NCBI GenBank assembly: GCA_022496205.1
Contig: WTXD01000064.1
Span: 1-64,000 of the forward strand
Origin: Gloeopeniophorella convolvens
Taxonomy: Eukaryota; Basidiomycota; Agaricomycetes; Russulales
Length of the DNA: 64,000 nt
Reading direction: 5' to 3'
The notes under the pieces were generated by a model. It ran no database searches. It saw only the letters and a program-made list of their open reading frames with translations, and had not been told where the DNA came from. A program made the translations under genes and the position numbers. Positions 3,319-36,504 of this stretch are shown here, piece by piece. Within the stretch, counting starts at the first letter, position 1, and every line of letters starts with the position of its first letter.

Positions 3319-3345
3319 ACCTTGCCGAGCATGATGACAAATACG

Positions 3346-6049: not shown

Positions 6050-6058
6050 GCGCCGGCC

Positions 6059-7590: not shown

Positions 7591-7925
7591 TCGCGTGACC
7601 TCACGCCGGAGGCCCCTCCAAATCCGTCCACGGTCGCCGGAGATTGCTTTGGCTTTGTTTTGAAGTGGCGTGGGAACCGACATTTTGTGCCAGCCGTCCT
7701 TGGGAGTGTTGCGCAACTTAGAGTTCATCGGTGTTTGTATTTCGGAATAGTCCGTCGGCGATGACTTATATAGATAAATTGCTTTGTATGTTTTGCATAG
7801 AAAATCATATTAATATGTCTTTCATAACAAAACATAACATATGATATGTTTTGCATGGAGAAAACTTCAAAGTCCGGAACTGTGACCTATAGCGACACTC
7901 CCAAGGCCGGCTGGTTAGCAGCCTG
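7591..7925 (-). repeat. right terminal inverted arm of the Mutator-like element
   Basis: The arm is the inverted partner of 6059-6394. Its outer end is CAGCCTG at 7919-7925, followed at once by the 9-bp duplication GCGCCGGCC (7926-7934). The inner boundary is near 7591, where the two arms stop matching (GTGACCTCACGCC). Confidence 0.85.
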
Positions 7926-7934
7926 GCGCCGGCC

Positions 7935-14957: not shown

Positions 14958-15447
14958 AAGATGGGCCAATGGATTCCAATCCCCACTCGAGATTGTGTTG
15001 GATTGAGAATATACCAGGGTCTTCTCGTGATGTAAAGAGGATGCTATCGGTTGAACAGTCGCTGGCGACGTACTGTATGTATGTTCATTTGGTCCAATAG
15101 TATGATATACTACTATATGTTCTTTGATTGGTTTATGTTCAATGCACAACAATGTTTACCCGTCCTTTCACCCATGCAATTCCTTCATTCCCTTGTCTGC
15201 CCGGACGCCCGTTTGCCTTGCGCCCGTCAGCACTGGTCTTCCAATTTAGATAACGTGATGTCTCGGCCAGTGCCGGCCCGTGCGAGCTTGCGAGGCGCTA
15301 CGACAAGCGACTGGTTCTCTTCTTGCTTACCACATCTGACGACCCAGCCAGCCCGGCGCAAACGATGATGCCCATCAACTTCTCTGTTTGCGGGAAGCTA
15401 TCTTTCGAGCGCGGGATCGCCGTGCAGCTCAGTGTACCGCCCTCTCC

Positions 15448-17884
15448 ATGGAAGAACCTCGTTCCACCGCCGCAGCTCAAAGCATCAACCACGGACAGTT
15501 TCGTGACAAATCCGAGTACCGTGCAAGCCTGGAAGAGCAATCCGTGCTCACATACCACGAGGCGACGCGTTCCCGCCGTGTGTCATGGTCGAAGAAAACG
15601 TTGCTTTCCCTCTTAGCCACATTCCTCGCGTTTTCCGCGTTCTGGACGAGGCCGGAGGCATTCGCACTCGGGTTACGTGCCCTTCGCGAGAGGGCAGCTC
15701 ACCATCAGAAGGATGGGCAAGTGGAACCGTTGACATGTCCACAAGCTCCGATATTCGTCCTCAAGAGGAATGCGATGTTGGTGGAGCACTACGACGATAT
15801 TCTTGGGTCCGACGCGTTCCAGCAGTGGGCGTATATCAGTTTGGGAGGTTCAGTTCAGATACCGTGCGTCCCAACTTTGATTTTTTTTTTTTTTCGCGCC
15901 GATTACTGAACTGTATGTATGTATGCGCGCTAGAACGGTCACGTTTGACGACATGGATCTGCCGGGCGAGGATTCTAGGTGGGAGACACGTCGAGCCTTA
16001 CACGAGTACCTTGCAGATCGTTTTTCTCATGCGTGCGTTGTCTTTCATATCGGCGAACCTCGGTTAATGCGACTTCGACAGTCACCGTGTTTTGAATAAA
16101 ACCGTGGTCAATCATTTCGGCCTCAGTTTTCACTGGCAGGGTTCGGAAAAAGCCCTCAAGCCTATTCTCTTAACGGGTCACCAGGGTACGTGGACGTGGC
16201 CTCTCCCTCGAGCTGCGCCTGATGCCTCTTAGACGTCGTCCCCGTGGCTTCAGATACGGAGCACGAATGGACTTACCCACCTTTCTCTGGCCATTTTGAT
16301 GGTGTGTACACCATGGTTCATCTCATCTTAGCCATTACTGACATATGCATGTCGCGTTTCCCTAGGCGACCGTATCTGGGGGCGCGGCAGCGGGGACGAC
16401 AAGTCTGGAGTCATTGGAATTCTGTGCGCCCGCATACATTCACGAGCGTTTGAAGCATTCTGACATGAGCGCCATCCAGCACTGCTATTGAGACGCTCTT
16501 GGATGCTGGTTTCCGGCCTTCTAGGACCATCATTCTTGCATTTGGTATGGACGAGGAACGTGGCGGTAAAACTGTAAGCCCTGCTTTTCGTGTCGACTTC
16601 GTTCTGCCAACTCATCTTGGTCTCAAGGGGGGTCCCGCCATGCGCGATTACCTCGTTGGGACCTATGGGAACAACGGGTTTGCTATGCTTATTGACGAAG
16701 GCCGTACGTGAACGGGAGATGCCCTCATTTACTTTAGCACTCACTTTTCCCCAGATGGCCTCGAAGATCGAGATGGTAAGATCTTTTCCAACCCCGCAGT
16801 CTCCGAGAAGGGCTGGACGAACGTGCAAATCGACGTCACAACTCAGGGTGGCCATCCATCCATACCTCCTCACCACACCGTGAGTGTTTGTTTGTCTGTC
16901 ACAATGCAGAGATTAATTGTGGATGCAGAGCATCGGCGTCCTCTCCAGCATCATCCACACTCTCGAGCGTGAACTGCCAGAAGTAAGGTTGGAGCGGTCG
17001 TCTACCGCTTTTACCTCACTTCTATGTAGTGCGGTCCATGACGGCGCATTTCCCTCGCACCTCCGCCCTCTCGTCTCGCGTGCGAGAAGGCATGACGATG
17101 GACTCCGCTCGTTGATAGATGCGCTGTTAGAGCTGGACTCCGGCTATTGGAGCGCCGTCCTCGGGACCACCCAGGCAGTCGATCTTATCAGTGGCGGGGT
17201 GAAGGCGAATTCCCTCCCACGATCCGCATGGGCGGTCGTAGACCATCGCATCGCTGATTGGAGGTAGGCTTCCTGAACTGTATCTTGCTGGCCCCCGTGT
17301 CTAACCCCTGGTATCTTCACGTTCAGCTCCATCCAGGAAGTACAGTCCCGCTACCGCCGCCTGCTTCGCCCCTTGCTAGAAGCATACAACCTGACGCTTG
17401 ACGCCTTCGGTGACGGCGACCCTTCGCAAGACTTCAATGTGCGCCTCAGCATCGCTTACGGCAATGTGCTAGAACCGTCGCCCATCACACCGACAATCGG
17501 CCACAAGCCATGGAACCTCCTTTCGGGTGTGATCAAGGATTCGCTCGCGCATACGCAGAAGGAAGTCGTCGTGTTGCCAGCGTTGGCTCTTGGTCTGTTT
17601 CTGTCCTTTGCAAAAATCATATTGGGCTGACGTCGTGCAGGCAATACGGATACGCGCTACTATTGGCCTCTGACGGAGCACATTTTCCGCTACAGCCATA
17701 TCAATGCGACTGGTTTTCAGGGTGGTCACGATGTTAATGAGGGTGAGAACGTCCTTCTCCAGTCCTCCACTTCAAGATACTGATCGTTCCACGGGTAGCG
17801 ATTCGTGGGGAGGCTTTCATCGAAATGATCAGGTTTTACGGACGTCTGATCCTCGCGGCTGATGAGGGCGATTTGGAAGAGTAA
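15448..17884 (+). CDS. M20 metallopeptidase, carboxypeptidase S / Gly-Xaa type
   Basis: This is a zinc exopeptidase expected in the vacuole or another endomembrane lumen, where it trims short peptides. The start at 15448 gives a hydrophilic head followed by one membrane anchor (LLSLLATFLAFSAF). Eleven or so introns rejoin a full M20 domain. VTFDDMDLPGEDSRWE leads to LLTGHQDVVPV (first metal pair), IWGRGSGDDKSGVIG (bridging Asp), IILAFGMDEERGG (catalytic and metal Glu), AMLIDEG, the dimerisation part SIGVLSSIIHTLERELP, and near the end GNTDTRYYWPL and GGHDVNE, which supply the last histidine. The stop is at 17884. All metal-binding positions look intact. A poly-T run at about 15881-15896 lies inside an intron. 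The gene sits next to the secreted-peptide genes, so a role in peptide trimming is possible but unproven. Confidence 0.9.
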
Positions 17885-18314
17885 GACAAGCTGTTCGTGT
17901 ATCTCTGATTTAGCGCGACGTTGTATAGAGCAGCTTTGCAGCCCAGGCGCTCGCATGCTGTCGCGTGGAAGGCGAAACCTGCAATCTTACGATGTCTTGT
18001 CAATCGTGTCCGCTCCGCATGAGTGTTTTCCACGGAGCCTGCCTTTTTAACGGTTACCTAGCCCAACCTTCAAAGGAACTACGTCGAGCGGATACCGACA
18101 TAATAAATATTTGACATTCTGAAACGCCGTTGCTTCATTACATTCAACCTTCATGCGTCAAACCCACACCGAATTCATCAACACAGAATAGTGTCTTGGT
18201 TTTGGTGAGCAACCGATCTTTACCATACTCGACTATGTTCTTGACGTATTGTGACTGTAGGAACTGCGTTCGTTTAGCTGCCGATTATCAAGCATGGGTA
18301 GTACTTACTATGCT
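17885..18314. other. intergenic between M20 gene and first secreted-peptide gene
   Basis: Nothing recognisable. The two flanking genes converge here, M20 on plus and peptide gene A on minus, so this stretch should hold both 3' ends. Confidence 0.5.
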
Positions 18315-18529
18315 TCAGGGAGGACCACCGCCTGCCTCTTGGAGGTTATTGCGCATACTGTACACATCCTGCTCCGGCGAAGCAGCAGTTGCAGCTACGA
18401 AAAGTAAGCAAGCTGCGTGCGAAGGACCTCTGTGAATGGTCAACCTTCAAGTTTCTCCTCCATGCTCAGAGGCGCAGCGGCGGCGGCGGCGACAAATGCG
18501 AGAAGAAACAAGGATAAAGAGACACGCAT
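18315..18529 (-). CDS. small secreted peptide, family member A
   Basis: The gene has two exons (18529-18445 and 18394-18315) and a 50-nt GT-AG phase-1 intron. The start codon at 18529 opens a signal peptide (MRVSLSLFLLAFVAAAAAA) followed by PLSMEEKLE. After the intron comes AATAASPEQDVYSMRNNLQE and a short tail to a stop at 18315, about 54 residues in all. The mature part has no cysteine. Without the intron the frame stops right after EKLEG, so ordinary ORF calling misses it. Exon structure, signal peptide and the SP-x(4)-Y-x-x-x-N-N tail are shared with the other members. Function is unknown. Confidence 0.7.
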
Positions 18530-20052
18530 GGGGAGTTGCTTACTTTGCACGCTCGAGGAGCTGATGGTCCAACGATACTGAGCACCGGAGACCAGTGGAC
18601 ATTTATACCTTGCGACTGGACTCATGGCTTTTGCAGGTGCCAGGGATCGCAACTCCGAGTGGCACGTACCTTTCGGGGACGGAATCCTGCTACGCGGACA
18701 ATACTCGAGTTAGTCTGATCAGACTAATGTGCTCAGGTATCTCCTCGGTAGTCTCGGGTCACCAATATTCGAACCACGAGGTAGGACTCGCATCGATCGG
18801 TGACTTACACCCCGTTCTCACATGCTTTTACAGTGCTGATGGACGCGCGCTTTCAACATAATTCTCCCCTCCCTGTCCGCCTCGTCAATAGTCAGGTACA
18901 TTCTCATCGGCCATTTCGACGACCGCTGGTTCTCGTCTATACAGAACGTCTGTTTTGTGTCCTTGGAGAAGAGGCGGTGGGAGATATTGGCATCGCCTTA
19001 GACCCGCGCAGCGATTCAACTGCGCTGTGAGCGCTGACACGTACACGCTCGTGAAATGCAGTTCAGGCATGTCATCTTCGATTTCCCGGCGCGTCTGGAA
19101 TGTGTCGCTGAAGTTGTACTTGAAGGTGATTGCCGTGATTCTTTCGGCGGCGCGTGTGTGGCCGAAAACCGCCTTGCTTCTTACAGCATCCCTGAGAACC
19201 AGTCCGCTGCGTATCGTGCGCGGCTCTTGTGCGCGCAATCAGTGATTGCTTTGGTGAGAAAATATGATGCTTTTTGCGAGAGCCTCCCTAAACTGCAATT
19301 TGTACTGAAATGGCCCTTCCCAGCTCGCACCCTGCCGGCGCCAGATGCACGCTCGTGAATCTCCCGGTAGTGCAAAACTAACTTGCGTTACTGGGTGTCG
19401 CGGGGTATGCGCCAGGGGTTCGAAAGCTCACAACATGCCCACAGTGAACCCAAGAGGCGTACACTTTCTGGTCGCTCCTAGATTCAGGAGTCGCGACATA
19501 ACCGTACGAGTCGTTCTTCTTTTACGTTGACTATCGAGTATGACCAAACTCTGGGCCAGGCACGCCAATAGCTGTCCGATCATGACCTCAATTCGACCCG
19601 TGTCTACATCATTTCTTCTCACAAACGGCGCACAGCAGAAGGCGGAACTATCACGATGACTGTATTCATCTTGGGTTCGTGCCCCTGGCGCGCCGCTTTC
19701 GAATCAGGGACCGGGACTACTTGTGTGTGCTATCTTTCTCCCCTTTGCGTGACGCGCCCGGGTGAGGGCAGGGGTTGTGCCCAAGCGAGTTTGAAAATTG
19801 AGCGTGCAGCTTTCAAGGGCATACGAGTCAATTTCGTATCATGCCGGCAATGGGTCCTGATGGCTCCAAATTTGTAGTGCGTACGACTCTTCATCAACAA
19901 CTATACGCTCTCACAGCAATTCCGAAAGCGACCCACAACGTGACCCAGAGCCCTAATCGCCCCTAGCATTCATCGTCATCAATCGTCTACACCACTCACT
20001 TCCGATAGAATAAGGTACAGGCATCATGAAGACCATCTTTGTCGTGTGCTTC
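18530..20052. other. intergenic between peptide genes A and B
   Basis: Plus-strand frames near 18885-19358 include a hydrophobic stretch (VSLKLYLKVIAVILSAARVW). I cannot build a gene from them. They could be the remains of a membrane-protein gene. Confidence 0.35.
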
Positions 20053-20267
20053 TCAATCGTGGTGAACAATATTGTTGTGAACGATATATATGCCACCATC
20101 GGGAGACGAAGCGGCCGCAACTGGACAAGGATAAGGTCAGACAGGGGTGGCGGACATCCATCTAGAAACTGACCTTCAATTTTCTCCTCGAAGGAGAGCG
20201 GCGAAGCCGTAGACAACATGGCTGTCAAAAACAAGATGGCGGTGGACAGAGCGATACGCATGTTCAT
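20053..20267 (-). CDS. small secreted peptide, family member B
   Basis: Exons are 20267-20174 and 20120-20053, with a 53-nt phase-1 intron. Translation can start at 20267 (MNMRIALS) or at the second Met, 20261, which matches the MR start of its relatives. The signal peptide ends near STAS and is followed by PLSFEEKIE. After the intron the tail is VAAASSPDGGIYIVHNN then IVHHD. The whole is about 53 residues, cysteine-free. PLSFEEK-I/L-E before the intron and SP-x(3)-I/V-Y after it are shared with members A and C. Confidence 0.72.
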
Positions 20268-21266
20268 TAGTCTGAGGTGGCGGTCTGTGCGTTGTGCAAA
20301 CCCGATGCTGCTCGTACGTTGGGTACAGCTGCTCTTTATATCGGGGGTTTGTACTGACGCCCGTTACCGTTATTGAAGATGCTGTATGCAGACTATGCCT
20401 TGCCAATGTACAAAACCCCTGTGGCGAGCTAAGTGCCTTAATCTACACAATCAAGACACTAGATCTGAGCGCGCAAGACGTCAGAAAATTCGGTAGGTTA
20501 CTAGTTACTCAATGTGTCCTATCACCAGTCACTAATCACTCCCGTGACGGCTTTTCTAAGTGGTACCCATACATCAAGACCTATCAGTACGGTAATCTCA
20601 GCTCTGGCACAGGGATGGGCTCACGATCGCCAGGATCTGGGTGCGTGGTTGACTTTCTTTCGGGGAGTCTTTTCTCAAGTCTGAGGAAGGTCGAGCGGGG
20701 ATGATTGACTCCGCCGACAACCCAAACGGGTTGCCACCACATTGCAGTTCGCTTCCTGAGGACTTGACAGGTGTCATGAGCACCCCATGGCTGTGAGTGG
20801 CAAGCAATCTTTGACTCGAACTCGCCGCACAAACTCAGTTTCGCACTCCTTAGGCCGCGGGGGGCCCGTAGGGATGAAGCTGATGCGCGAACTCAGCGCA
20901 GCCTAAGTGGTCTCTGCGAGCATCTGTGTTACCTTTGGACAGACACTTCCTAGCTAGTAGGCGATTCTGTGGCCTGCGACCCCATATCCATGTCTGGCAG
21001 GATAACCGATTTTACTAGCCATGTTGACTCTCGAGGCCATCAACACTCATACCATGGCAGCAGCCGCGTCACAGCTTTTGGGTAGAAAATGACATACAAT
21101 ATCTGTAGCAAGCAACATGAATGGGAACAGCTTATGTCACCCATGCCAAACGGCCTTCCAGGACAACTAACCGCAGATTGATCACTTCGTACGAGGTTGG
21201 GTTCACCCGAGCCTAGTTGCAAGAGTTAGGATACCGACGAGTCCTACAAAGATGAGCGAATAAGAC
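20268..21266. other. intergenic, no gene seen
   Basis: A 136-codon plus-strand frame (20294-20704) shows no domain or signal peptide and overlaps the presumed promoter of peptide gene B. It was not accepted as a gene. Confidence 0.45.
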
Positions 21267-21937
21267 TTACAATGGCATCCCAGCGCGCCTTAGGTACGCT
21301 GTCCAGGTGAGCCACTGTTCCATGTTGTCCTCGAAAAACCTCTCGAAGTCCCTACATGTGTGGATCTCTCCGACGCGGTCAACTTCAAAGTTGCGCTTCG
21401 TGAAATCTCCCGGTTCGAGTGTGAGGTCGGGGTGACACAGCGCCTCCTGTCGTAGCACGCCCAGACAATGCAGGTGATGGCCGTACGCCGGGTTTCCAGA
21501 GCGGTCTGAGATCCATTCGCGAACTCTGCGTAGGCAATGCTCCTGGTGGTCCAGCGATACGACCAAGATGCGGTTGTTTGGACCCATGCGGTTGACGCCA
21601 CTTCCAAATCCGGTATCGTACTTCCACTCATCCGCACTGCCAGGTCCACTAGCATGGTAGTGCACGCTTTCCTCGACCACCATCTCCACCGTTCTCTTCA
21701 TGCCTAGGTCAGCAAAAGGTGGGATGTCGTCTCCGGTCATAGCTGTACATTGGATCTGGTCAGTGCCTGTAGTATTATGATGACAGTGCGACGAATAGCT
21801 GACTATAGTCTCTTCGGATCGTGGCGCAACCTTAATCTCTAAATCCGCACGAATAGGAATAGCGTATAGGTAAAGAAAAGGGAGACTATGCTGAGAACGC
21901 AGACGAGCAGAGTGAGGATGCGTGGTTGAGCATGCAT
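21267..21937 (-). CDS. UstYa-like (DUF3328) protein with two HxxHC motifs
   Basis: The C-terminal exon carries both signatures of the UstYa family. VVSLDHQEHCLRRVREWI holds HQEHC, and YGHHLHCLGVLRQEALCHPD holds HHLHC followed by the usual LRQ-x-x-x-C. After them come GEIHTCRDFERFFEDNMEQW and the stop at 21267. A short 41-nt intron (21810-21850) keeps the frame to an upstream exon with a membrane segment (ILTLLVCVLSIVSLFFTYTL). The Met at 21937 gives the single N-terminal anchor usual for this family, while an in-frame Met at 22084 would add a second hydrophobic stretch. UstYa proteins are lumenal oxidases or cyclases in ustiloxin-type ribosomal peptide pathways and also occur in other fungal metabolite clusters. 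Peptide genes A and B lie within 3.5 kb. Confidence 0.78.
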
Positions 21938-22084
21938 CTGAAGGTCGATGTGCGTGAACAGTGGGCCCAAGCGTCGATGATCCATGCGTCGCCTCTTAAT
22001 GTCCAAGATCCATACTCCCACATTCACCGCAATGGCCGTGAGCGCTGAACATTCGATCAGAAGGTAATAGAAGAAGATGTCCAT

Positions 22085-22902
22085 CGCTGTCCTCGACTGC
22101 GGGCGCTACACAGCTGCGTTACATAATTACATACCCTCCGAAGCGCGCCGACGCGTATTCGACAGTTCGGTGCGCGGTGGTGCACATCTTGGCCGACCAA
22201 AGCCACTGAAGGTTTGACAATCGTGGCAGTGATCTCGAAGCACAGTCACAGAGGCTCGTGGATTTGAACTTGTCCCACGAAAACAAGACAAGAAGGCATA
22301 CCGTACTGTAGCGAATCCGCATGGTCAATACCAGGCTGTTTGATATTACCTTATACGGTGAGTGACTAATGATTGGCCGCCTTTCGATGCTCACGGAGCG
22401 AGTCGCGTTGTGTTACCGTCAGTCCACCTCGTCGACTAGCGCCTGACTGACGCCGCTTCGGATAAGCCCTGCTCATTGGGGTGCGCGACCTTGGCGAGAT
22501 TCGCCACTTGTGTTAGTTAGGTCGTAGTTGGCGCTCACACTTTGTATCGCCTCGGTTATTCCTGTTGAACGAGTACTCAGGCACACAATTCTCAGCGCGC
22601 CCACGAAGAGTATCTTCGCTCTGACACGACTAGATCATGCAATTGACATGGCCAACTTCTTTGCACCTATCTCTGAAGGGTGTGCCTTGTTGATCATCCC
22701 ACCCTCTCTGATTGCATTGAGAGGACTTAAACAGGACAAAGTGATTTGACGAGTGATAGGCAACGACACTCTGTCGTCCTGTCACTGTCCTGGTATCCTG
22801 TCGTTTTCAGTATAAGATGTGCTCGCAAGAGCCATTCCTCACTGCCGCCTTACCCCTGGTAAGGAACCTTCTCGGACGCGAGCTATCGTTGCCAGCCTGA
22901 GC
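22085..22902. other. intergenic between UstYa-like and membrane protein genes
   Basis: Two short frames (22119-22394 minus, 22528-22749 plus) show no domain. This is the shared upstream region of two divergently transcribed genes. Confidence 0.45.
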
Positions 22903-24350
22903 ATGTCCGATCCATCCGACCAAGCGGCTGCCATCTACCAAGCGTACAAGACAGGGCTCTATGACTACCTTTTACAGGGATGCTATTCGGTAAGCCGTTA
23001 CCTGTATCACATCACCGCTGCATGGTTCACCGCGCCGCCGCCGCCGCCCCAGGTGCCCATGTCCTGCTGTATGCTGTCTCGACCCACCTCCTTCTGTAAG
23101 GATGCCTCCTTCTCAGCGCAGTACGGGGATTGATTCGTCGTGTTCTCGATAACAGGAGCAACGGGAAAGCCTTGACTTCAGGGCCGCGCACGTTCATGCT
23201 GAGTGTGACGACGATCACATTTCTCCTGGGCATAGGAGTACTTGTGCTTGACGTCTCTCTCAACCTGCAACAAATGGTGTTGACGCTCAACCCTCCGGGC
23301 GGGGGGATATGGTCTACACGTCTTGTTGACATCATTGTGGCCGTTGGCTCCGTCATGATACGAATCATCGTACGTTCCTGCGCTGAATCGTACTGCTAGC
23401 AACATACTAAACAGTGTTGAAGTTTATCATGAGCGACGTCATTTGCGCATGGCGTGCGATGGTCCTTTGGAATAGGGACAGGAGAGTCGTTGCTGTTCTT
23501 CTCCTCTTTCTCCTTGGTACCGTGGGTAAGATTGGTCTCCTCGATCAAACAATCGCGTACTGACGATAACGTTGTGACGGAAGCTGCCGCTGGGTGTGAC
23601 CTCGGTCTCGACTTGGTCCCTCTTTTCAATCCATCTCACCATAGCGCGCATGACGACAGCGCAGTAAAGCGTGGCGAACGCGCTTTGATCATGATCGGCC
23701 CAACTTTGGCGACAAACATCCTTTCTACCTCCCTTATTGCTTGGAAGGCCTGGTACGTGCTCCTCATCTTTGTTTTCTGCCTATGCACTGTAGGTCGGCT
23801 CATCGTACATAACGAAGGTCGCATCGTCGCTCCGTACGCAAGCACCTCGGAGAGGGTAACACCTCGCAAAGGGTAGAGAGAATCCTTGCATTGCTCATCG
23901 AGTCTGGATTCGTCTACTGCTGCATCTGGGTCAGTCCTTTTGTCTCGTCAAATGATGGCGATGATCACTCACTGCCTCGAACTTCCAGATCCTGTACCTC
24001 GTTTCAGCGTTCCGCGTATTACCTCAGGTGGGATTCGATGTCATGGACACGGTCATACCCTTTGCGGCGGTATGTTCATCGATGCGCGCCGCTTTTCTCT
24101 GCAGCTCGCTGATGGTGATACGCAGGGTGTCTATGCACCGATGATCGTTATCCTCGTCTGCATCCAGAGAAGCCCGGTGCAGCACTACTCGACCTTCTCA
24201 ACCGGGATGCAGTTTGCAACCCCGCCACCGATGTCGGAGTCGCACAAGTCGAATGTTACGAACGAACACGTGTACTCCATCCGTCCTCGTGACTACATGG
24301 CGGACTCGGACCCGGAAGTACCTTCGTCGCTGTCAACGAAGGGCTTCTAG
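22903..24350 (+). CDS. basidiomycete multi-pass membrane protein, copy 2 (intact)
   Basis: The start at 22903 reads MSDPSDQAAAIYQAYKTG. Exons rejoin in frame: GPRTFMLSVTTITFLLGIGV, FIMSDVICAWRAMVLWNRDR, MIGPTLATNILSTSLIAWKA, then after an intron ending at about 23817 SHRRSVRKHLGEGNTSQRVE and RILALLIESGFVYCCIW, then ILYLVSAFRVLPQVGFD, and finally PMIVILVCIQRSPVQHYSTF with a polar tail ending at 24350. Five or more hydrophobic helices imply an integral membrane protein. It is a paralogue of 202-1635. This family is frequent in basidiomycetes and has no function known to me. Confidence 0.75.
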
Positions 24351-25344
24351 GACGCTTCCATACGTGATTGTGCACAGCTAGTATATTTATCATTTATGAA
24401 TGTATCTGCCCTTGAAAGATGTGCTTGACACTGCTCAATCACGAGGAAGCATGATCTGTGCAGAGGCCTGTACGCCCGAGTGTCTTGACAACGTCAGTCC
24501 GGCTACTTTCATCTAGAATGTAAAATTACAGTGAAAGTTGAGTTCTCTGAGCGCATTTCAAGTCCTTATCTTGCAGACGCGTCACTTGTCATAGATTGGG
24601 CAACATGTTTGCTGCTTGTTATGGCACCAGCATGAAAGAAGGCGACTGTTACCAGGACCTATGGGAACCTTCGCCCGCTGACAGAAGCTTAGCTGACAGC
24701 GTTGGAGACACGGGCGGATAACTGTGAAGCTGGTATCCTTTGTTCCACCAGAGAAAGAGATATCATTATGGAAGACTATGAGACCATGTGCTGTGCCGCT
24801 ATCAACTGACCAACGACGTCGGCACTGACGTGAGAGTCGTCAGAGCATCATGCACAGTGACACGAGCGCGTGCTGCAAATCAGTCATGACTTAGGGCTAA
24901 GTTCATTCCGGCAGGACTACGATGTCTGGAGCCGAGCATAGAGTTTTCCGCAGTTAGCTCTATGCAAAGCTTGGAGGTATTTGACGCTGACACAACATTG
25001 ACCTAGGCTAGCACACGGGGTAAATATACCGCAGACCAACTTCAGCATCGGGAACGCTTATTCTGCACCGCAATATGCTGCCCCGGCGTCCGATGCCGAC
25101 TCGCAGCGAGTGTTAATCGTCACATAGACTTGAGCTCGAGCGTTGAAAAGCTCGCGAGCCCAGGAATAGATATATACATGAACCCCGCATCAGGCATAAA
25201 CGCATTAATCTGGTTCGCATTGGAAGGAAAGGATCGATTGCTATTCTTACAAGGTTATTGCCTTTGCATACATGAGACAAAAATACCTACCAACGATCTT
25301 TCATCGGCTTTGGATATATAAACGAAGGGTCCTCGCGCTTCAAT
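24351..25344. other. intergenic, no gene seen
   Basis: About 1 kb without a supportable exon on either strand. Confidence 0.5.
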
Positions 25345-25547
25345 CTACACGTTTGAGCTGTAGATGGATAATTCTGGAGACTCTGCAACTGCGGCTGATC
25401 ATCAAGTCAGCAGACGGTATCAAGAAAGATTATCGAAAACGTACCTTCCAATTTCTCTTCAAACGAGAGAGGAATTGCGACGGAGGATGCAGCACAAAGT
25501 GCGAGGAGAAACAATGGCACCAATGATTGCACCGCTAGGCTTCGCAT
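25345..25547 (-). CDS. small secreted peptide, family member C
   Basis: Exons are 25547-25445 and 25394-25345, with a 50-nt phase-1 intron. The signal peptide (LVPLFLLALCAASSVA) is followed by IPLSFEEKLE, then after the intron AAVAESPELSIYSSNV and a stop. The product is about 51 residues with no cysteine in the mature part. PLSFEEKLE matches member B almost exactly, and the SP-E-x-x-I-Y core matches A and B. Confidence 0.72.
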
Positions 25548-26949
25548 CGGGACAACTAGCAGACGGAGCACTACAGCAGTGGGAGCACTAGCACAGGCTT
25601 CCTTTTATCTCTCTCATCCCATAGTTGATGGTAGGACTCGCACGCCAAGGCGCAGAGATGCAGCGACAGCGTGAGGGATGGTGATGAAGCCTGAGGCACG
25701 CAGCAGTCTTAATGTTGGATGATGATAGGTATTTCTAGGTGGTTCATCGGCACGAACAGGTGACCTTTTTGGCGACACTTCTGCAGTGTGTTGGGAATTT
25801 GGACTGATTGATAGATTGCAATGAAGCTTATAAGTTCATATGCCGGGACCGTTGTGACGGGCGCGGTGCAGTTCCAAATTGCATCGTGTGAATAGAAACC
25901 GGGATAGAAACAGTTGGCGTACTCACTGTACGACTTTCGATATTTCACAATTCGCAAGGGGTCCGACATGTAACTCGTGCCTCTGCAATCTACTTCAGGG
26001 ACCTAAATGTTGATGAAGATTGCTGCCAGAGATGGACCACGACGAAAGCAAAGAGACTCGGAAACAGCCGAGCTGGAAGTCGACCGGAGCCCTCCGAAAC
26101 TCCGAAAGACTTTCCGAAACTCCGAAACTTTGCTCGACTCAGAGACTGGCACGTGGTTACCACACGGTCGGGCATTCATTTTGGGAGCGCTCAAGGAGGA
26201 GTCTCTTGAGCTGCCCGGCCAACTGCTCCGTGGAACAATCACTGAGTACGAACAACCGCGATGGAGGGCTTACGCGGGAATACTACCAAAAATTGATGCC
26301 TTAAACCCCAACGTCCGGCTTTCTCTCCTTCGCCATGAGATACATCCACAACCTGCCACCTGCCTCCGGACTGTTGGTGCAAACCGTCGGCGATATACCG
26401 TTATCCCGTTGCACCGGCGTTTTCGGGCCATTCAGTCCAGAGAATGATTGAGTGGATGTTTGACCACATGGTACGCAGTACTTGCTGTCGGAAACGAGAC
26501 AAACCACCCCTTTCTCAGGCTGCACACTTGGAGGACCGATGTCACCGGCGAGAAGCGAGCTTTCTGAGCCGCCTTCGCGCCGCTGCTCAATGCATGGTGC
26601 AATCTCCCCAATGCCGGATCTCCGGGATAGGAACGACATATCCAGAACGAGTCAGGATCACAAGCAATACCTCGCGGTAACCCTCTGTTCGAGGAACAGC
26701 CATGCGTCGCTCTCAGGGCGCTCTCCACCTCGGGAATTGCTCGGGAAGGTCACATCGCTGGACCCTATGCCGTGGTTCTGTATGATGATCCCATAATAGC
26801 GATAATCAGACAACCGAATGACAGAGTGCGGCAAAGCGTCATTTCATTGTCCTCTTTCCACTTCACTATAACGTTAACTGAGTGACCAGCCCTCCCAACC
26901 GAATAGTATCGGTCTGCACTTCCTGAAACCGGAGGCCGCGTATACTGGC
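25548..26949. other. intergenic, no supportable gene
   Basis: Overlapping frames on both strands at 26007-26796 show no domain. A short repeat of the words TCCGAAACTCCGAAA lies at about 26092-26125. An 86-codon minus frame (25709-25969) has no signal peptide or relative that I know. Confidence 0.4.
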
Positions 26950-27162
26950 CTAGTCACTGTTAACAGCAAAGAAGCCGTTCTCATCAGGGGTCAAAGGGAC
27001 ATCTGCTCTCGGATGGCTCATTAGCGATCCGTCACGGAGGGAGGTACTAGATCTTTCGTCACCTCTGGCCTCCCCTCTGGCCTTGTCTTCGGGAGCAGCG
27101 TCATCGGCTGATGCACCGGCGACGAGCGCGAGAAGGAGGAATGTCAGAAAGAACGTGCGCAT
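26950..27162 (-). CDS. small secreted peptide, family member D
   Basis: The best model has exons 27162-27063 and 27002-26950 with a 60-nt phase-1 intron at the family position. The unspliced frame is also open and would give 70 residues. The signal peptide is MRTFFLTFLLLALVAGASA, then DDAAPEDKARGEAR, then after the intron DVPLTPDENGFFAVNSD and a stop at 26950. This makes 50 residues, no cysteine. The TPDENGFFAVN core aligns with SPDKSGFIAHN of member F. The pre-intron part is more acidic than in A-C and lacks PLSFEEK. Confidence 0.68.
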   Translation of the reverse strand: MRTFFLTFLLLALVAGASADDAAPEDKARGEARGDERSSTSLRDGSLMSHPRADVPLTPDENGFFAVNSD

Positions 27163-27754
27163 GTTCGAAAGCTGGTGTCGACTAAGGGCGATGTCTGCCT
27201 CTGATGCCCATGAGCAGGAGTGCATGCTGATTTTATAGGTCCTGTGGCACCCTGCCTGCCGGGTGCAATGTATCTAGCTTGAATGCACCCGGAACAGAGT
27301 GGCCTGGAAGGTAGCCGAATCACCAAATGCAGCCGTCACGAAAATTCGGGCCTTCAGCGCCTCGCTTCAGGGACCCATAGTCGGGCGCCGCTCTGTTCTG
27401 TGTTTCATCGTTTCCTTCTGTACCTTAAGATGGGCTGTGGTACAATCACAGTCCCGCACCTGGGTACGCTGCGACGTACACGAGTAGCTACCCGCGCCTT
27501 ATCCCGGGCCCGCGATGCGTTCAGGACGCCTTCATTCAGCGGTCATTTCCCAGCGTCAACGTAGGTACCCCGCAATCTGTCCTTAACCCCGCTGGCATGC
27601 CAGTGCATGGTGGAGTACATAGGTTGACGTTGGCTGCTGGATGTATCAGGCACAAACACAAACTGTCAGATACCATTCCATCCTATTCGATCGTATCGAC
27701 TGCATGTACCACAATTTCCCGGCGATATAGATGATTCAGGCCCTCCAGCTCAAT
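27163..27754. other. intergenic between peptide gene D and the OYE gene
   Basis: No domain or exon chain seen. Confidence 0.45.
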
Positions 27755-29021
<1,267 letters not shown>

Positions 29022-30301
29022 GGCAGGTAGATCTGAGCGTGAGCTTTGTTGCAGCAAACGTTGAAACGACGCCCATTTTATGTTGTCCGCACCCTTCCCT
29101 CCGCGCCCACCATGACAAACCTGTAAGCAGAAATTATGGAATCGAGACTGAACTTCGATCCCTGTAGGCCTGACTCGATCCCACGCCGCCAGCAACAATA
29201 GACGGCATGACTACACACGTACCTTCACATCGAAAATGCGGCATCGAGCCCAATTCCCATTGCAAACGGATTCTCGACAGTACCGCGAAGACGGTGTACC
29301 GAGTCAGGTATGCCTTGGGATTTGAAAGCTGCATGATTGGGAGATTTCTGGTCAGAAAGAGAGTCGATAATGAAGAGAGAATGCATGAACAAGCTTTCTC
29401 CTCTGGAGTACCAAAACTTCGGCCCGGAGAACAAGGTATGCAAGTATCGGGGCCCGAGAGGACGCGTAATCAGGATGACTACTGCAATGAGTGGCGAGTG
29501 ATGTGCGAAAACGACGCAAGATCCCACCCAGTTCCTACCGCGCTCTGGAACAATGTCGTAGCCGATGTGTCAGCTGGCACGTAAGACTTCCTATGAAGAA
29601 GCTGAAGAATCAGAACAATGCACCGGCAGTGAACCCACCCAACCTTTTCTCTGGCAAGCTCTCTTGAATATTCGGCCCCAGGGACTCGGATCGACACGAC
29701 GCAGAGAAACGCCGATAAGGTATCACGCCCCATGAAGGGAGTAAATCTATTACAAAGCTAACGACACGGGCATATTCATACGCTACGACATCCTCAATAA
29801 CCTATCAGAGCGCCATCAAGCTTGGAGAAAAATAGCCTCTTACAAGAGAAAAAATGCAAATAATGCAAGCGGCAACTTGCAATGTCCAGCGACAAGGATC
29901 GGATTACGCACTAGAATCCTGTTCCTCGGTCGGTCCAGTGCACATACTGATGGGCAACCTTAGACTCTGATTTCGAACGTCGACGGTGACTATTGGGGAT
30001 TGAAGCGTGGGATCGCAGGGTACGTCACACCTCTGCTTGCTTTCTACGACGATAGAACACACATGCACTGCAAATGAGACCACCAAAAAAAGGTGCAGCT
30101 TGCGCCATGTGTCGTGAGTCACGCATCATGACTGTCGGATTTGTCAGTTTAAACAATGCGTTTGTCAGGGGATATAGAGCCCGGTAGACTTGCTGCGAGA
30201 AGATAGATCGGTAAAAACCCCCTGCCAAAACAGAGAGGCGATGAGTTGTTGAAGCAACATCTTATGCACTAGCCACTTACCCGTCGTTCATGTGACCCAT
30301 C
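29022..30301. other. intergenic, weak coding signal only
   Basis: A 72-codon minus frame (29904-30122) has a hydrophobic start (LHLFLVVSFAVHVCS) and an SPIVTVDVRN stretch faintly like the peptide family. It contains cysteines and does not share the phase-1 intron, so it is not counted as a member. Confidence 0.35.
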
Positions 30302-30499
30302 TCAGTCTTTAATGGTAGTGAACCCTCCCTCATTCGGACTGCGCGCGAACGCTACACGATTACACGCATGAGCGAACAAGGAACCGGCGACAAGAAAGAG
30401 AACAGCACCTTCAGCTCTACCCTTCATGTCGAACGGAGAGGCCGCGACGAAGACAGAGAGAGCAAGAATGACGAATGATGTCTTGAGGAAGGAACGCAT
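30302..30499 (-). CDS. small secreted peptide, family member E
   Basis: Exons are 30499-30409 and 30351-30302, with a 57-nt phase-1 intron. The signal peptide (SFLKTSFVILALSVFVAAS) is followed by PFDMKGRAE, then after the intron AFARSPNEGGFTTIKD and a stop at 30302. The product is about 46 residues with no cysteine. A nearer alternative acceptor would give a different tail (VRMREGSLPLK). I prefer the one above because it restores the E-A-x-x-x-SP arrangement of its relatives. Confidence 0.66.
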   Translation of the reverse strand: MRSFLKTSFVILALSVFVAASPFDMKGRAEGAVLFLVAGSLFAHACNRVAFARSPNEGGFTTIKD

Positions 30500-31555
30500 A
30501 GTAGAAATTGACAGTGGTTGGGGTTCGTCACTGAGTACAAGTCTCCATGCTTGTGCCGGGGACACCACTCGTACCTGTCCTAGCACGGACGGCAGCTGGT
30601 TAAGGTTAACAGATGGCTGGCAGAAGCTGTCAGGGGTGGGCCGCAGCCTGACACGGAATTGATTGCTGGCGTTATAGCTCGAGCCTAGATAGGCCCTGTG
30701 TGTTTGTATGCTTGCTCCACCGCGGACGAATAATGGAGTATTGCTATGTTGGGCTTCAGGGGTCTGACAGTAAATCCAGGACATTCGAGCACTCAAATTC
30801 GGGGCAGGAACGGATAGAATTCCGGAGTAGGTGAAAGGGTGGGTGCAATTATCCTCATATTGAAAAGGGCGTAAGAGGTCAAGGAGCATGGGACGTGTTG
30901 GCGGACACGCACTGGTTGCGGCGCGGACGGCCTTGATTGAGACGGCGCTTCGGGAAATGCCGCGTGGATCCAGCGGTGCCGAATGGCCAGCCCAACATCT
31001 CGCCGCATCTTGCCCGCGAGGTATTCAGCAGGTGGTCCGGACTGAACGACAGGATCCAGCTGGAAGCCTTCAATTCGGAATTTCGCCGTGAGAATTCTCG
31101 CCAAGCCAACGCACGAAATCGCGTCGTACCGTGACACTGGTGCCCACCTGGAGTTTCGCACGAGCATCACTGCCTTCTCTTGCTCACGAGATAACTGTTC
31201 GTACTTACTTGTGGCACATTGACATACGAAACGTACACTCTATTCCATTCAAAACCAAAACAACATCAGGGACGCAACATGTTGATATGTCTACACGGGG
31301 CAGCCGTGTTACGGCGTCGATAGAAAATGGATGCTGCATTGTTAGGCGTTATACTCGCACCAAAAGTCGCGACTGCAGTACGCCGAGAGCTTAAATTGCG
31401 ACTCGCTTCAACATCCAGAAGTACAAGAGAATATGAGGAAATATAGGCCATACGGTGTCCGGTGCCACCGTCGAGTACTTCAAAAGCGTCCTGTCGGGTT
31501 ACTAGGTGAGTTTGTCCAGTGGCGAGCAATTGTGCACACTTACCCACGGACTCCC
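30500..31555. other. intergenic upstream of peptide gene E, with duplicated block
   Basis: No gene was recognised. The stretch contains AGGTGAAAGGGTGG at about 30829 and GGCGCTTCGGGAAAT at 30944-30958. Both recur in the same order upstream of member F. Confidence 0.5.
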
Positions 31556-31772
31556 TCAGCCCACGTTGTTATGAGCAATGAATCCGCTCTTATCAGGGCT
31601 CACGCCAAGAGATAGACCCAAGGCTAGACCAATGCGCGTGAGAGGGCGTGGCTGAGCGTAAGAGCTTAAGCTAAAGTGTACCTTCCCGGGCCCTCTCTCC
31701 TGCGTTAAAGGGAACTGCCGCAGCAAAAACGGTCAACGCAAGGACAGAAAACGGTGCCAAGAGCAAACGCAT
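31556..31772 (-). CDS. small secreted peptide, family member F
   Basis: Exons are 31772-31682 and 31623-31556, with a 58-nt phase-1 intron. The signal peptide (RLLLAPFSVLALTVFAAA) is followed by VPFNAGERARE, then after the intron ALGLSLGVSPDKSGFIAHNN then VG and a stop. The product is about 53 residues with no cysteine. The SPD-x(2)-G-F/I core and the HNN that follows match member B (SPDGGIYIVHNN) and member D. Confidence 0.68.
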
Positions 31773-33246
31773 AGCAGCCAGTAACGAGTGCTTATGGGTG
31801 AAGGTGGTATGTTGCTACTGAATCGTCAAGATCAGAGGGCTTTATGCTGCAACCTACACGGTTTTGACCTGGCACCGGCGCCATTTTAGAGTTCCGAGTA
31901 CAGCGGCGCCACGCGCAGCTTTCCCATGGGCGGAACTCCAGTTGGCAGATGGCAGAAGCTGTCACTGGACGGGATGAATGAATCAATCCAGCGGGACCTG
32001 GTCGATAGCGCTATCATGGTATGTAAAGATCAAGATAAGGGAACTTGTTCTAGCTGTGACCCTCAGAGCATCAAAGAATCTTGATGTATTTCAAGCTTTT
32101 GTCCGTGAATAGACTAATTCATCTTAATGCAACGAGTTGATCTCAGGGATTATCCACTATCATGGTACCGGTACCAGTTACATACCAGTTCCAGTTCGTC
32201 AGAATTTGCACGGTAAGGCCGCAGAACCCGGGTTCTCCGACTTTCCTGGAGAAAGACAGGGCACCAACGGAGGTGAAAGGGTGGTTATAATAAGATTCGG
32301 ACTAACAGAGGCGTAAAAGGGTGCGAGGCGTGAAGCTGACGACCGCGACTGATCGAGAGGTTCAACGGACCTGCCACCACGGCTGCACGGTCACCGGTCA
32401 CCGGTCACGGACCACGGTCATGGCCGAGGCGGCGCTTCGGGAAATACCGCCGTGGCCGCTGGCTTGTGTCTTTCCCAAGTTCTTTCCTCAAGCTCAGGTC
32501 CTTTTGCTGCACCCGATCATAGCGACCAGTAACAACCTCCTCAGGTAGTTGTCTAAAACATGGATGCTCAATGATATTTGTACTTAGGCACAGAATAACG
32601 TGAGTCAGGCCAAGCTATATGGATTATAGCCACGTCGCGGGAGTGCTTCCCAAACCACACGGCGTTAATCAGAAGTGTGCGCTGCATCCTTCAGGTGACG
32701 CATTAGACGCTTCTCAACAGCATAATTAACAGTGCACGTTCAGTATCTTGTGCCTTCTGAGGAATGCAAAGCCTCCGTAAAATGGGTGAGAGGGAGGTTC
32801 GGATCGTACTCTCTACGTCCACCGAATATCACGGATCCACAAAAACAACAAGTGGCGTCAAAAAGGAGCGCATTATCGTGAATATACGAAACGGCCGTCG
32901 GCAAGAGTGATTAGCGGTGTGCTGCTGCCAGTCAGAAGACCACAGAGGGTTTTATAGCACGAGCTCCCCAGAGTTCAGGCATCGGCGCACAATCGGCGCA
33001 AGCCTTACTTCCATGTCTATTCCCAGCGGGGGCTTCTCTGCTCACAGCATAATATCACCGTTGTCTCGATTTGGGTCCGTCTTCGATATTGTACTGACGG
33101 GAATAAAACGACCTCCCCCCTCCCCCCCATTGTACCCTTAGGAATACCCATGCGCCCTCGTATATCTGTCACTTAGCGGCTGGAAAAATCGAGGCGGCAA
33201 CACTGCTTCGCCGTGACTCTGCCTCATCGTCCAGCCCCTGATGAGG
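31773..33246. other. intergenic upstream of peptide gene F
   Basis: No gene seen. The block near 32268-32445 repeats elements found upstream of member E: GGAGGTGAAAGGGTGG at about 32268, then GGCGCTTCGGGAAAT at 32431-32445. Confidence 0.5.
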
Positions 33247-33484
33247 TCAAGTGAGTCTCTCCTCGATCGAGGGCCGTGCGAAGAAGCCTTTGTGGATCGA
33301 GATCCTGGTATTCTCCAGGGATAAACCACGAAAATGAGTTAAAGAGCAGAAAGTGCGGTATTTGTTGCGGAGGCTGACCGTCGGCTCTGCCATGCTTTCC
33401 CCTCGAGACTCGAGCGGCTGCGCCGTGGTGATAGCGGCGCGCGGCGAGTGCGAGGAGGTATGAAGGGACACAGAAGACGCGCAT
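33247..33484 (-). pseudogene. frame-broken relative of the small secreted peptide family (H)
   Basis: The start at 33484 opens MRVFCVPSYLLALAA, a signal-peptide-like beginning. One base later in register the DNA reads AAITTAQPLESRGESMAEPT, like the PLSxxEKxE part of the family. A possible intron then leads to SIHKGFFARPSIEERLT and a stop at 33247, where GFFA recalls member D. The 1-nt shift between the two halves makes it a decayed copy or a sequence error. The relationship rests on short similarities. Confidence 0.4.
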
Positions 33485-34433
33485 GGTGATGCGGTTCCAG
33501 TCCGAAACGGCGTCGAGATAGTTCGCAAGCTAATACGTATGTTTCTTCTGAGGACGGGGTCTTTGTACATCGAAGGCCTTGAGTGATATGAGAAAAGCTG
33601 TTATGCGAGCATGTGCATCTGTTTTCTGCTCTGTTAGTGTTTCCATTGCCACCCGGATCGGCGTTTGCGGCTACGGAGGAGCGTGCAATTGCCGCTATAG
33701 GGGAGGCAGTGATGGGTAGGCGCCAAAACGAGAGCTGATCCAGTTGGACCCGGTTCACGAAGAGGGAGGCTGTAGTATCTTTGGGCCTACGCGTGAGATA
33801 AAGGTAGTGAGAGTTCTCACAAATCCAGCGCCGCATTGAGGACCAGATGCCATGTACGCCGCCGAGTGCGAGAAGGGAGACCGTCTTGACCGAAACATTC
33901 ATAATCGGTGACAGCGAGCGCCATTTGCGAGCGTGGAACGGTACCTAGAACGACGTTACACGAGGATGGCTTCAGTGCTACTAATGAGAGCAAGTGCCAG
34001 CTACAAAACGGAGGCCCCAAAGGCACCAGTCCATACATCAACGATAGCTCCCGCATGTGATGAACAATGTATGATCATCGTACTACTGGTTCACAGATAT
34101 GTGGCATGGTATCCCAGGAGCTTCCAGCGACCGGGAGCAATGTTTGACGTTACATAGGCGCAGCCGAGAGCTGGATCCGTGATGGCAGCCTGTGTGGACG
34201 TTGCAGCTGTGCAAGCAGAAGCAAAGAATGGACGATGTCAAAGCCTATGTGCAACCCTCACAACCCTGGACCCTGATGAGGCCTGACGTAACATAATCGC
34301 ATGCACCGGCGTCACGCTCTGCGCGGCCCGGGGACATGGACAAGGCGGGTGTATTGTAGGCAACCCGCACGGTGCATGGATTCTAAGCTACGTTCTGCTC
34401 AACACGTGTCGACGTCATATCTCCGTTGCTCAT
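33485..34433. other. intergenic, no supportable gene
   Basis: A minus-strand frame at 33339-33902 begins with a signal-peptide-like stretch (MNVSVKTVSLLALGG). The rest is not protein-like and no exon chain was found. Confidence 0.4.
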
Positions 34434-36504
34434 TCAACCAATTCATTTTCAGTTGCGCGCACCAGCGACGCTGCTGCTTCCGAGCGTGGGCGAATGTGGC
34501 ACTTGAATGGCTTCACGTAGCTAATATCGGGGTTCGTCAACCCTCTGCTCTACCCCGCGGAAGAAATTGTAGATTGAGACTTACGCAACTAGCCCTGACG
34601 AATATTCTTCATCGAGTGGGCTACCCTTCACTGGGACCAAATCGAAGGCGGCCAGTATCCCGGAAATTGTCGCCCAGACGCTTGACCGAGCCATGTACCT
34701 GCCTGGACACTCGCGGCGTCCGAAGCCGAATGCCTGATCTGGGAAGCGAGGCGCATCTGGTGAAAGCCAACGCTCGGGTGTGAATTTATCAGGCTCCGGG
34801 AATATTTTAGGATCACGGAAGATGGCCCTAGGGAGAGGTTTAGTATCCAATAGACGATCGGCAGGCGAAGTCGTACCAGGTGTTACCTATGATGGTTGCG
34901 CCTGCGGGGATGAAATGTCCATCATAGGTATCTGACTGGGTGGTGCAGTGAGGCACGGCTGTGTTGCAATCGTATCAGTAGTGCCCTCCCCATTGAAAAA
35001 CATAGACATGCCAAGAGGTAGAACTGGATGCCAGCGTAGAGTCTCTTTAAGCACTGCACCCACGTATGGCAGGGCGTCATGGTCTGCGAAATCTGGAAGG
35101 CGCGACGTGCCAACTGCTCTATCAATTTCCGCCTGCGCTTTGCGCTGAACGTCTGGGTATTTAAGCATTGCAAGCATGAATGTCAGCAGCGCAGACACTG
35201 TCTGCGACGAAGTTCAACAAGCAAAGATCTTGTCGGAATGTCACTGAGGGTCACGCACAGTATCGGCACCAGCCATATACATGATTCCGGGCACAGCCTT
35301 TGAGGCGAAGACATCTTCCGCAGTCGGGTCGCTGTCCAACGTTGAGATCATCGCGGCCGCGACACTAGGCACAGCTGTTCCATTGGCCTGGTTTGCGTAT
35401 GAGTCGGTGGGATCGTCAATAGCAATTGCACATACCAGGGCAGCTTTTACTTCTTTATAGGGTCGCTCTATCGAGTCGACCGCAGCAGACTGCGCCTTCA
35501 GAGCCTCGCGCTTCAACCCGAAGCCGGGGAACCAGTTGGGCAGGTGCTTTACTGCAAACAGCCTGTTAATTTCTACTCTATTCGATTGGTTCGAGATTGC
35601 TTACGCCAAGGAATGTTGTCAAAGAGGAATGCGGTGTTTGTTGAGGCAAGGGCCAGCGCTTTCAAGGTTTGTTCTGCAGACGTCACGTACGGGTCGTTCT
35701 CGGGACGAACATCAATCCCATATGCAATAGATAATATGGTTTGTCCGGCCATGCTATGCTCGGATTGAAGTTATGATACTCGTAAGTCGTACACGAAATC
35801 GATCAACTCACTGTCTGAGGTGTTGCGGAAAGTCGCCCGGTTTGGCGAGTAAGCTACGGAGAAGGCGGTGAGTAGCTCTTTGTTCGAGTGGCTCGTATTC
35901 TTTTGCGGCTGCAGGATGGAAGTTGATGTGGAATTTGGAACGCAGATAACGCCAGTGCCTTCCGTATGGGAGAAGCCCAATGTTGTACGTCATACCAAGG
36001 CTACATAGGATGAGTAAAACGTTTGTGACTTATGCGCTGTCGAACGTACAACTCAAGCAGAGCAACCAATGGGGGTCTGGCAGCCATTTTAGCGGACCGT
36101 GTAGGAGAAGCATGTAAGTGAGCCATACCTGTCAGAATAGATGGAAGAGCGCCTCTCGAGTAGCTGTTTTGTTGCCTCCATAGAGTTGAGGATGATGATG
36201 TGCGACCCAAGGACATCGACGTGCACCACGTCAGAACCTTTATATGATTCAGCGAACGCCTTAAAGGACTTGAACAATCCAAGAAGGCTCAGCTGTTCAT
36301 ACCGAAATCGTCTGACCATCTTTTGTACACAACCCATTCTTCGCGCGAAGGCATGTCCAGCAAGTTACCAATAATTGGCAGCCGTCTGGGGCCCGGGGGA
36401 TAGGAAAGACGACGTCCTCTAGCGCGAATCACGAAGAGTGCCAAGCTCGCAGATAGTGCCGCAATGGTGAAGAGGACCTCGACTCTCGTAAGATCAACCT
36501 CCAT
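34434..36504 (-). CDS. cytochrome P450, array copy 1
   Basis: This is an ER-anchored monooxygenase of about 500 residues in many exons. The start at 36504 gives a membrane segment ([17 protein letters not shown]) and the hinge [18 protein letters not shown]. Following exons read [32 protein letters not shown] and [19 protein letters not shown]. The oxygen-binding helix is AGADT joined by splicing to [24 protein letters not shown] supplies ExxR, FTPERWL the PERF motif, and [14 protein letters not shown] the heme-cysteine loop. After a GT donor the last exon [14 protein letters not shown] ends at 34434. All key residues are present. It resembles basidiomycete P450s often annotated as O-methylsterigmatocystin oxidoreductase-like. 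The substrate is unknown. Confidence 0.9.

Follow-up and report, generated by a model that had tools for sequence, protein, structure and literature searches.

Bases 1–64,000 of contig C366 (141,770 bp; assembly of 36.7 Mb in 404 contigs) of the wood-inhabiting crust fungus Gloeopeniophorella convolvens, referred to below as the window, carry six minus-strand micro-genes, A–F, which, judged from the sequence, represent a real family of tiny peptides, unnamed in the libraries searched. The family is a tandem one with birth-and-death turnover, and its members read as tiny putative secretory precursors; we favour, at a probability of about one half, the reading that A–F are single-core precursors of ribosomally synthesized and post-translationally modified peptides (RiPPs), devoid of KR/RR sites and modified by UstYa. 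An earlier note on this DNA had listed modified-peptide precursors among its options, and this part of its interpretation is now the best supported one, because of a UstYa gene and a second group of micro-genes with two UstYa matches, both of which that note had overlooked. Its placement of the host in Polyporales was mistaken, as the fungus belongs to Russulales.

Structure and extent of the micro-gene family

Each of the six genes reads as an ATG, a first exon, a phase-1 GT-AG intron, a second exon and a stop codon (Table 1); every locus permits further GT-AG combinations, and the chosen splice is the solution common to all six. The layout described in the earlier note (minus strand, one phase-1 intron, a short Cys-free tail) was thus recovered at all six loci, with no Cys after residue 18 in any product and with signal-type N-termini assigned by a hydrophobicity rule only, as putative signal peptides. 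Several of its details require adjustment. The stretch PLSFEEKLE, said to be conserved in A–C, reads PLSMEEKLE in A and PLSFEEKIE in B; a stop in exon 1 soon after the donor is present in A, C and F, but D and E stay open through the intron and B has an open reading frame (ORF) of 104 codons. The family is indeed hidden from gene callers, with the exception of one public gene model, P0057 (77 aa; window 20024–20310, minus strand), which overlaps locus B with a different splice. This model shares the N-terminal 20-odd residues of B, its exon 1 ends at PLS and is followed by another frame, and its junction looks non-GT-AG by eye rather than by computation; it may be transcript-derived or a modelling artefact. 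An alternative acceptor of D lies 3 nt further on (27062-27003) and extends the intron to 60 nt.

A strict scan of both strands of the 64 kb (hydrophobic N-terminus, phase-1 intron of 45–75 nt, tail with [ST]P[DEN]x2-4[FYWI]) yielded six loci only, A–F, each of them minus-strand and beginning with MR, vs. a mean of 0.05 loci (maximum 1) in 200 order-3 Markov resamplings, a comparison that overstates the case because the tail motif was learned from A–F themselves. A structure-only rule used no tail motif and required MR or MK, a hydrophobic N-terminus, A-x-[PAS], a phase-1 intron of 46–72 nt, a Cys-free tail and an acceptable donor, acceptor and branch site; of the hydrophobic start, phase-1 intron and Cys-free tail that the members have in common, phase 1 and (later) the Cys-free tail were built into the scan rules. 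Within the window this rule returned six rows, namely B–F (five of the six genes) and one artefact (null mean 0.04, n = 100), A being missed with a donor below threshold. Over the 32 kb of C366 past the window it returned eight rows, corresponding to seven loci and one in-frame artefact (null mean 0.03, maximum 1, n = 200 Markov resamplings), and it returned none over other loci totalling 79.6 kb (with a few kb double-counted). Alternative splice rows of one locus, alleles on contigs C41, C52 and C142, and the in-frame MK artefacts that lie within E and within its near-copy were dropped before counting. Some rows of looser scans were rejected as non-MR or ill-fitting (L003, L004, L029:936 and L032), and one (L029:4632) as the start of a UstYa gene rather than a micro-gene.

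The 16 predicted members listed comprise the six in the window, eight further on C366 and two elsewhere. The second group on C366 (65–93 kb) includes 65049, 72756, 75371, 77138, 78538 and 79519 on the minus strand as well as 92760 and 89892 on the plus strand. The first three appeared initially with the structure-only rule and 92760 later; 77138, 78538, 79519 and 89892 had been seen in looser motif scans before that rule was fixed. The 89892 gene, which does not reach the structure-only threshold, emerged when the donor was relaxed or a motif was used, and 79519, with a tail unlike the others, is the least certain of the eight. A protein-level search of the complete assembly with five exon-1 peptides gave matches on C366 and its haplotype contigs, C41 and C52, and otherwise at only two new sites: member T (C370:53682, minus strand, E = 0.0046; predicted phase-1 splice PLSFDEKLE/VSRAQAPGKGVYSDQNGR) and member U (C113:93281, plus strand, E = 8e-4, with an equal match on C142; splice YDQVE/AAAVTPVEDKAIPDGVRW). 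For both, the splice given is one among several possible, the second exon being outside the query. The member counts are lower bounds, since exon-1 queries have low sensitivity: A and C went undetected with the B query, as did F with that of 89892. A candidate further member at the window edge (63796–64000, minus strand; MRFLVASISILVLVLQAAVTAA/HGLAHVPNLEARSPEPENLNFY; 70-nt phase-1 intron) has a weak donor and can be spliced in several ways, of which this is one.

All 16 listed members start with MR and a hydrophobic stretch, their leaders end in E at the intron in 12 loci, and their products span 43–64 aa with a net charge of 0 to -6 after residue 18; Y, F or W occurs within the last 25 residues in 19 of 19 member or allele sequences. 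The statement that no named family fits was upheld, with nothing above cut-off in Pfam for five member sequences (best sub-threshold E = 0.052) or in the prokaryote-oriented NCBIfam library for seven (best E = 0.19). Further members were found in the same genome, but no relative came from other species among 5.8 billion proteins: one alignment (A1) gave no relative at E ≤ 1 among 440 candidates, and a tighter A/B/C/T alignment (623 candidates) gave only this fungus's own locus-B model (E = 0.046). This absence says little, because precursors this short are, to our knowledge, rarely annotated.

Copy turnover is evident on C366, where an inverted duplication (Table 1) carries in its window arm an old-yellow-enzyme (OYE) gene, E and F, with D outside (the other arm being read to 96000). 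E differs from its near-copy at C366:92760 (plus strand) by nine synonymous and four non-synonymous changes (Fisher p = 0.0003), and third positions take 9 of the 13 changes overall and 6 of 8 in the tail. Because the changes are biased to synonymous and third positions, the spliced frame of E is probably translated, and this comparison of copies supports purifying selection on E, with constraint on its spliced frame. The counterpart of F at C366:91315 (plus strand) has kept SPDVSGFIAHNNAD with a frameshifted exon 1, and the 89892 gene survives in the window only as a remnant near 32873. In the so-called M group (72756, 75371 and C52:16852), the non-synonymous rate (dN) is 0.03–0.13 for the leader and 0.27–0.35 for the tail, the synonymous rate (dS) of the latter being 0.27–0.58, and such kept leaders and divergent tails are as expected of precursor cores. 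The rapid tail change claimed previously for the family thus describes this group, but not the two allele pairs considered below. C366:72756 and C52:16852 differ strongly (79% DNA identity), with neighbouring alleles at 93–100%, and C52:16852 is equally near 75371 (80% identity); the two probably occupy corresponding positions on two haplotypes, as versions of a single micro-gene. As for the other haplotype contig, C41:14662–32856 matches window 2779–22615 in three blocks of 97–98.5% identity, in a haplotype-like manner, and the first 2.9 kb of C41 also match window 3086–6014 at 81%, as a duplicate. The C41 allele of A carries one D-to-H change in the tail and differs by a single in-frame Ala in its signal; that of B encodes the identical peptide.

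UstYa genes and likeness to known peptide systems

The UstYa (DUF3328) gene of the window sits between B and C and encodes HQEHC and HHLHC, i.e., two HxxHC motifs, whose H, H and C are invariant in the window protein and in 16 aligned relatives (of 55 found). Its main exon shows 0 substitutions in 474 positions against C41, compared with 39 in 3046 outside listed coding sequence (p = 0.007). Two UstYa matches, at 83.0 kb (window-like) and 81.7 kb (diverged), lie inside the second group, and the presence of UstYa inside both group 1 (21.3 kb) and group 2 speaks for the favoured reading. Named relatives of the protein occur in Multifurca (57% identity), Lactarius (54%), Lactifluus (55%) and Russula (51–57%), with more distant ones in Mycena and Favolaschia (40–44%). 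The whole genome has 19 PF11807 matches (16 after removal of three haplotype duplicates), often in close pairs (C45, C101, C268, C18, C7, C366/C52). A sequence search of the PDB with the UstYa protein P0022 gave 17 chains at E ≤ 10, none named UstYa; the best of them is a designed repeat protein (7.8e-6), for which no stretch passes by itself.

In the scheme that we infer for the secretion, modification, cross-linking, release and function of the tails, each precursor would comprise a signal-type N-terminus, a short leader and one short, mostly aromatic tail of the form SP[E/D]..G[F/Y] (with variants), and each tail would be a single RiPP core. The precursor would enter the secretory pathway, the cluster-encoded membrane-bound UstYa oxidase would cross-link an aromatic side chain of the tail, and further tailoring by the adjacent OYE and cytochrome P450 enzymes would be possible. 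Release would require a protease other than Kex2, because KR, RR and RK sites are absent; as a guess, a Ste13-like dipeptidyl aminopeptidase could act on the E-A, x-A or S-P dipeptides that precede the core. Diversity would arise through the multiplication of genes rather than of cores inside a single precursor.

This arrangement resembles that of the ascomycete dikaritins (ustiloxin, phomopsin, asperipin-2a) by precursor-like genes with putative secretion-type N-termini beside UstYa oxidases with two HxxHC motifs, by two UstYa genes in group 2, by an aromatic residue in most putative cores and by P450 exons a few kb past F. In ustiloxins, phomopsins and asperipin, side chains of the core are cross-linked by UstYa homologues (PMC9233826, PMC7329392); tyrosinase is present in the ustiloxin and phomopsin clusters (PMC7329392), and a pair of HxxHC motifs in the DUF3328 protein is a criterion quoted in PMC12048977. 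Measured against these dikaritin features, a DUF3328 gene lies near the precursors on C366 but not near T and U, both HxxHC motifs occur in the window UstYa but not in its 81.7-kb partner, and repeated cores, Kex2 dibasic sites and a tyrosinase in the cluster are missing. The micro-genes further differ in that many genes carry one core each (vs. many repeats in one dikaritin precursor), their host is a basidiomycete and their products measure only 43–64 aa; KR/RR sites for Kex2 are absent, and C366 gave no match to tyrosinase.

The MSDIN/cycloamanide precursors of Agaricales have one core per gene, a kept leader and a variable core; they are not known to carry a signal peptide, and a prolyl oligopeptidase joins them head-to-tail into macrocycles. 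The present genes are likewise a basidiomycete one-core-per-gene family with kept leader and variable core, but they have a signal-type N-terminus (MR plus a hydrophobic stretch in 16 of 16 members), another leader and UstYa. Kex2-processed repeat proteins (KEPs) are also secreted precursors, some of them beside DUF3328 genes, including 103 of 1680 in basidiomycetes (6.1%; Umemura 2020, PMC7329392), but that survey required repeats split by Kex2 sites and is therefore blind to genes of the A–F type. In lichen UstY clusters, similarly, UstY homologues are found with no repeated-core precursor; these are, however, ascomycete clusters whose signal-peptide candidates have putative Kex2 sites, and no micro-gene family is described in the parts of that paper covered (PMC12048977). 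Victorin and epichloecyclin precursors share the short cores cross-linked via aromatic side chains, but are multi-core, thought to be Kex2-processed, and ascomycete (PMC9233826).

We advance only tentatively, and with less confidence than the reading of A–F itself, the broader thesis that basidiomycetes make UstYa-cyclised RiPPs from hidden one-core, Kex2-independent micro-precursors in gene arrays. If true, it would account for the apparent lack of substrates for basidiomycete UstYa proteins, as both gene finders and Kex2-repeat surveys are blind to such genes, and peptides of the A–F type may supply the missing starting material from which a class of cyclic fungal peptides is made. Because few KEPs adjoin DUF3328 genes, the 2020 survey considered that cyclisation of these proteins "might hardly occur" in Basidiomycota (PMC7329392); the same 6.1% adjacency makes other substrates for basidiomycete UstYa plausible, in our view. 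Pleurotus, for example, has 16 UstYa-like genes, six of them developmentally expressed, for which the authors suggested "probably" dikaritin production (PMC8893723, eLife 2022). We recognised no description of single-core UstYa precursors in basidiomycetes in the literature, as covered by titles and abstract starts (with few subscription papers and no preprints). Of 307 papers from one search, the 20 listed deal with the taxonomy, ecology and genomes of fungi, and neither DUF3328 nor UstYa occurs in them. A precursor type with this different layout makes the question of basidiomycete UstYa substrates directly testable and provides a search rule (MR signal, phase-1 intron, short tail, UstYa within tens of kb); it also suggests that mushroom gene catalogues may miss entire families of secreted peptides.

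Counter-evidence and alternative explanations

A number of observations weigh against the favoured reading. The UstYa link rests on one contig, since no fitting micro-gene was found near UstYa on C45, C18, C101, C268, C7, C388 and C370 (structure-only scans of stretches from 3.2 kb on C388 to ~17.5 kb on C370), on C370 a distance of 29 kb separates T from the closest UstYa hit, and U is on C113/C142, contigs without a UstYa hit; moreover, the two groups on C366 have parts duplicated between them and are hence not independent. These scans also returned two candidates that were rejected, a locus on C101 that can be read with two exons or without an intron and has Cys in its leader, and a C370 row that lacks an intron. 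The 81.7-kb UstYa is without exact HxxHC motifs, and the UstYa N-terminal exon of the window haplotype is disrupted relative to C41, which would represent either a null allele or an assembly error; C41 also shows many small differences near its end. KR, RR or RK after residue 18 was found in none of the 19 member or allele sequences (KK stands at the C-terminal end in two, from one gene with two alleles), every listed member has a single short tail with no multi-core repeats, and tyrosinase (PF00264) occurs in the genome only on C257, C361 and C204, with none on C366. The protein searches described above found no relative outside this genome. Signs of selection are also mixed: E and its copy differ at similar rates in the intron (6/57) and the coding sequence (13/141), exon 2 of E (84% identity) is little better conserved than the flanks (81%), the haplotype difference of A and B combined (1 substitution in 321 bases) is too small to test, and the allele pairs 75371/C52 and 77138/C52 have no non-synonymous tail change, so fast tail change is not general.

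Part of this counter-evidence favours unmodified secreted peptides, i.e., linear signals or small effectors produced by signal peptidase and trimming, with UstYa as a chance neighbour in a secondary-metabolism region. T and U exist apart from UstYa, the stretches read at other UstYa loci are without micro-genes, and the multi-copy state of UstYa makes chance adjacency not negligible. Nevertheless, UstYa lies inside both dense C366 groups and the tails are Cys-free and mostly aromatic, which leaves this alternative rather unlikely, albeit the strongest competitor of the UstYa-modified precursors.

Two further explanations appear improbable, and to a similar degree. The tails could be ligands of the adjacent multi-pass membrane proteins in an autocrine peptide-receptor system, as paralogues of the membrane protein of the window lie in or near both groups (Table 1); but this protein family, which has no Pfam match, is large and scattered over other contigs (C373, C7, C1, C2, C361, C232, C41), and gave no hit at E ≤ 1e-5 on C370, C113 and C142, which carry T and U. 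Alternatively, fast-changing tails behind kept leaders in the M group, together with the divergence between 72756 and C52:16852, would suit small secreted peptides with an antimicrobial or other defensive role, whose diversity stems from conflict with competitors; typical antimicrobial peptides are cationic, however, and the net charge here is zero or negative, with E apparently under purifying selection. That the pattern is due to chance or to non-coding repeats misread as genes is very improbable: several members do have weak donors (GTTGAC, GTGCTG, GTACAC), some stem from a segmental duplication, which copies any sequence, and the E intron and exons diverge at similar rates, but the Markov null scans are near zero, members were found beyond the window, and the changes in E show a synonymous bias.

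Coordinates and neighbouring genes

Table 1. Features of the window, with the splice marked by a slash in the product sequences
Feature	Position	Strand	Intron	Product	Sequence or remark
Micro-gene A	18315..18529	-	18444-18395, 50 nt, weak donor GTTGAC	54 aa	MRVSLSLFLLAFVAAAAAAPLSMEEKLE/AATAASPEQDVYSMRNNLQEAGGGPP
Micro-gene B	20053..20261	-	20173-20121, 53 nt	51 aa	MRIALSTAILFLTAMLSTASPLSFEEKIE/VAAASSPDGGIYIVHNNIVHHD
UstYa (DUF3328), main exon	21267..21740	-			PF11807, E = 4.4e-10, 40.2 bits vs. cut-off 25
UstYa, N-terminal region with membrane segment	21780..22085 (approximate)	-			Frame disrupted relative to C41
Multi-exon multi-pass membrane protein	22903..24350	+			Paralogues at C366:68.1-69.3 and 85.9-86.95 kb
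Micro-gene C	25345..25547	-	25444-25395, 50 nt	50 aa	MRSLAVQSLVPLFLLALCAASSVAIPLSFEEKLE/AAVAESPELSIYSSNV
Micro-gene D	26950..27162	-	27062-27006, 57 nt	51 aa	MRTFFLTFLLLALVAGASADDAAPEDKARGEAR/ADVPLTPDENGFFAVNSD
Inverted-duplication arm	27260..34276				Other arm C366:96000-87596; blocks of 73-89% identity
FMN-dependent OYE gene, between D and E	27883..29198	-			PF00724, E = 1e-65 on one ORF
Micro-gene E	30302..30499	-	30408-30352, 57 nt	46 aa	MRSFLKTSFVILALSVFVAASPFDMKGRAE/AFARSPNEGGFTTIKD
Micro-gene F	31556..31772	-	31681-31624, 58 nt	52 aa	MRLLLAPFSVLALTVFAAAVPFNAGERARE/ALGLSLGVSPDKSGFIAHNNVG
Further member, remnant limited to the start of exon 1	32830..32873 (approximate)	-			Counterpart of the gene at C366:89892(+)

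The flavin mononucleotide (FMN)-dependent OYE gene has a second ORF with a PF00724 match below cut-off (E = 6.3e-4) and a paralogue in the other duplication arm (C366:94–95.4 kb). The P450 exons lie at 34887–35198 and 43984–44367, with a sub-threshold match at 44759–45181. Elsewhere in the window, ORFs of the NPHP3/NACHT type and with ankyrin repeats at 9246–13348 (plus strand) make up a STAND-like gene, accompanied by a sub-threshold Goodbye-domain match.

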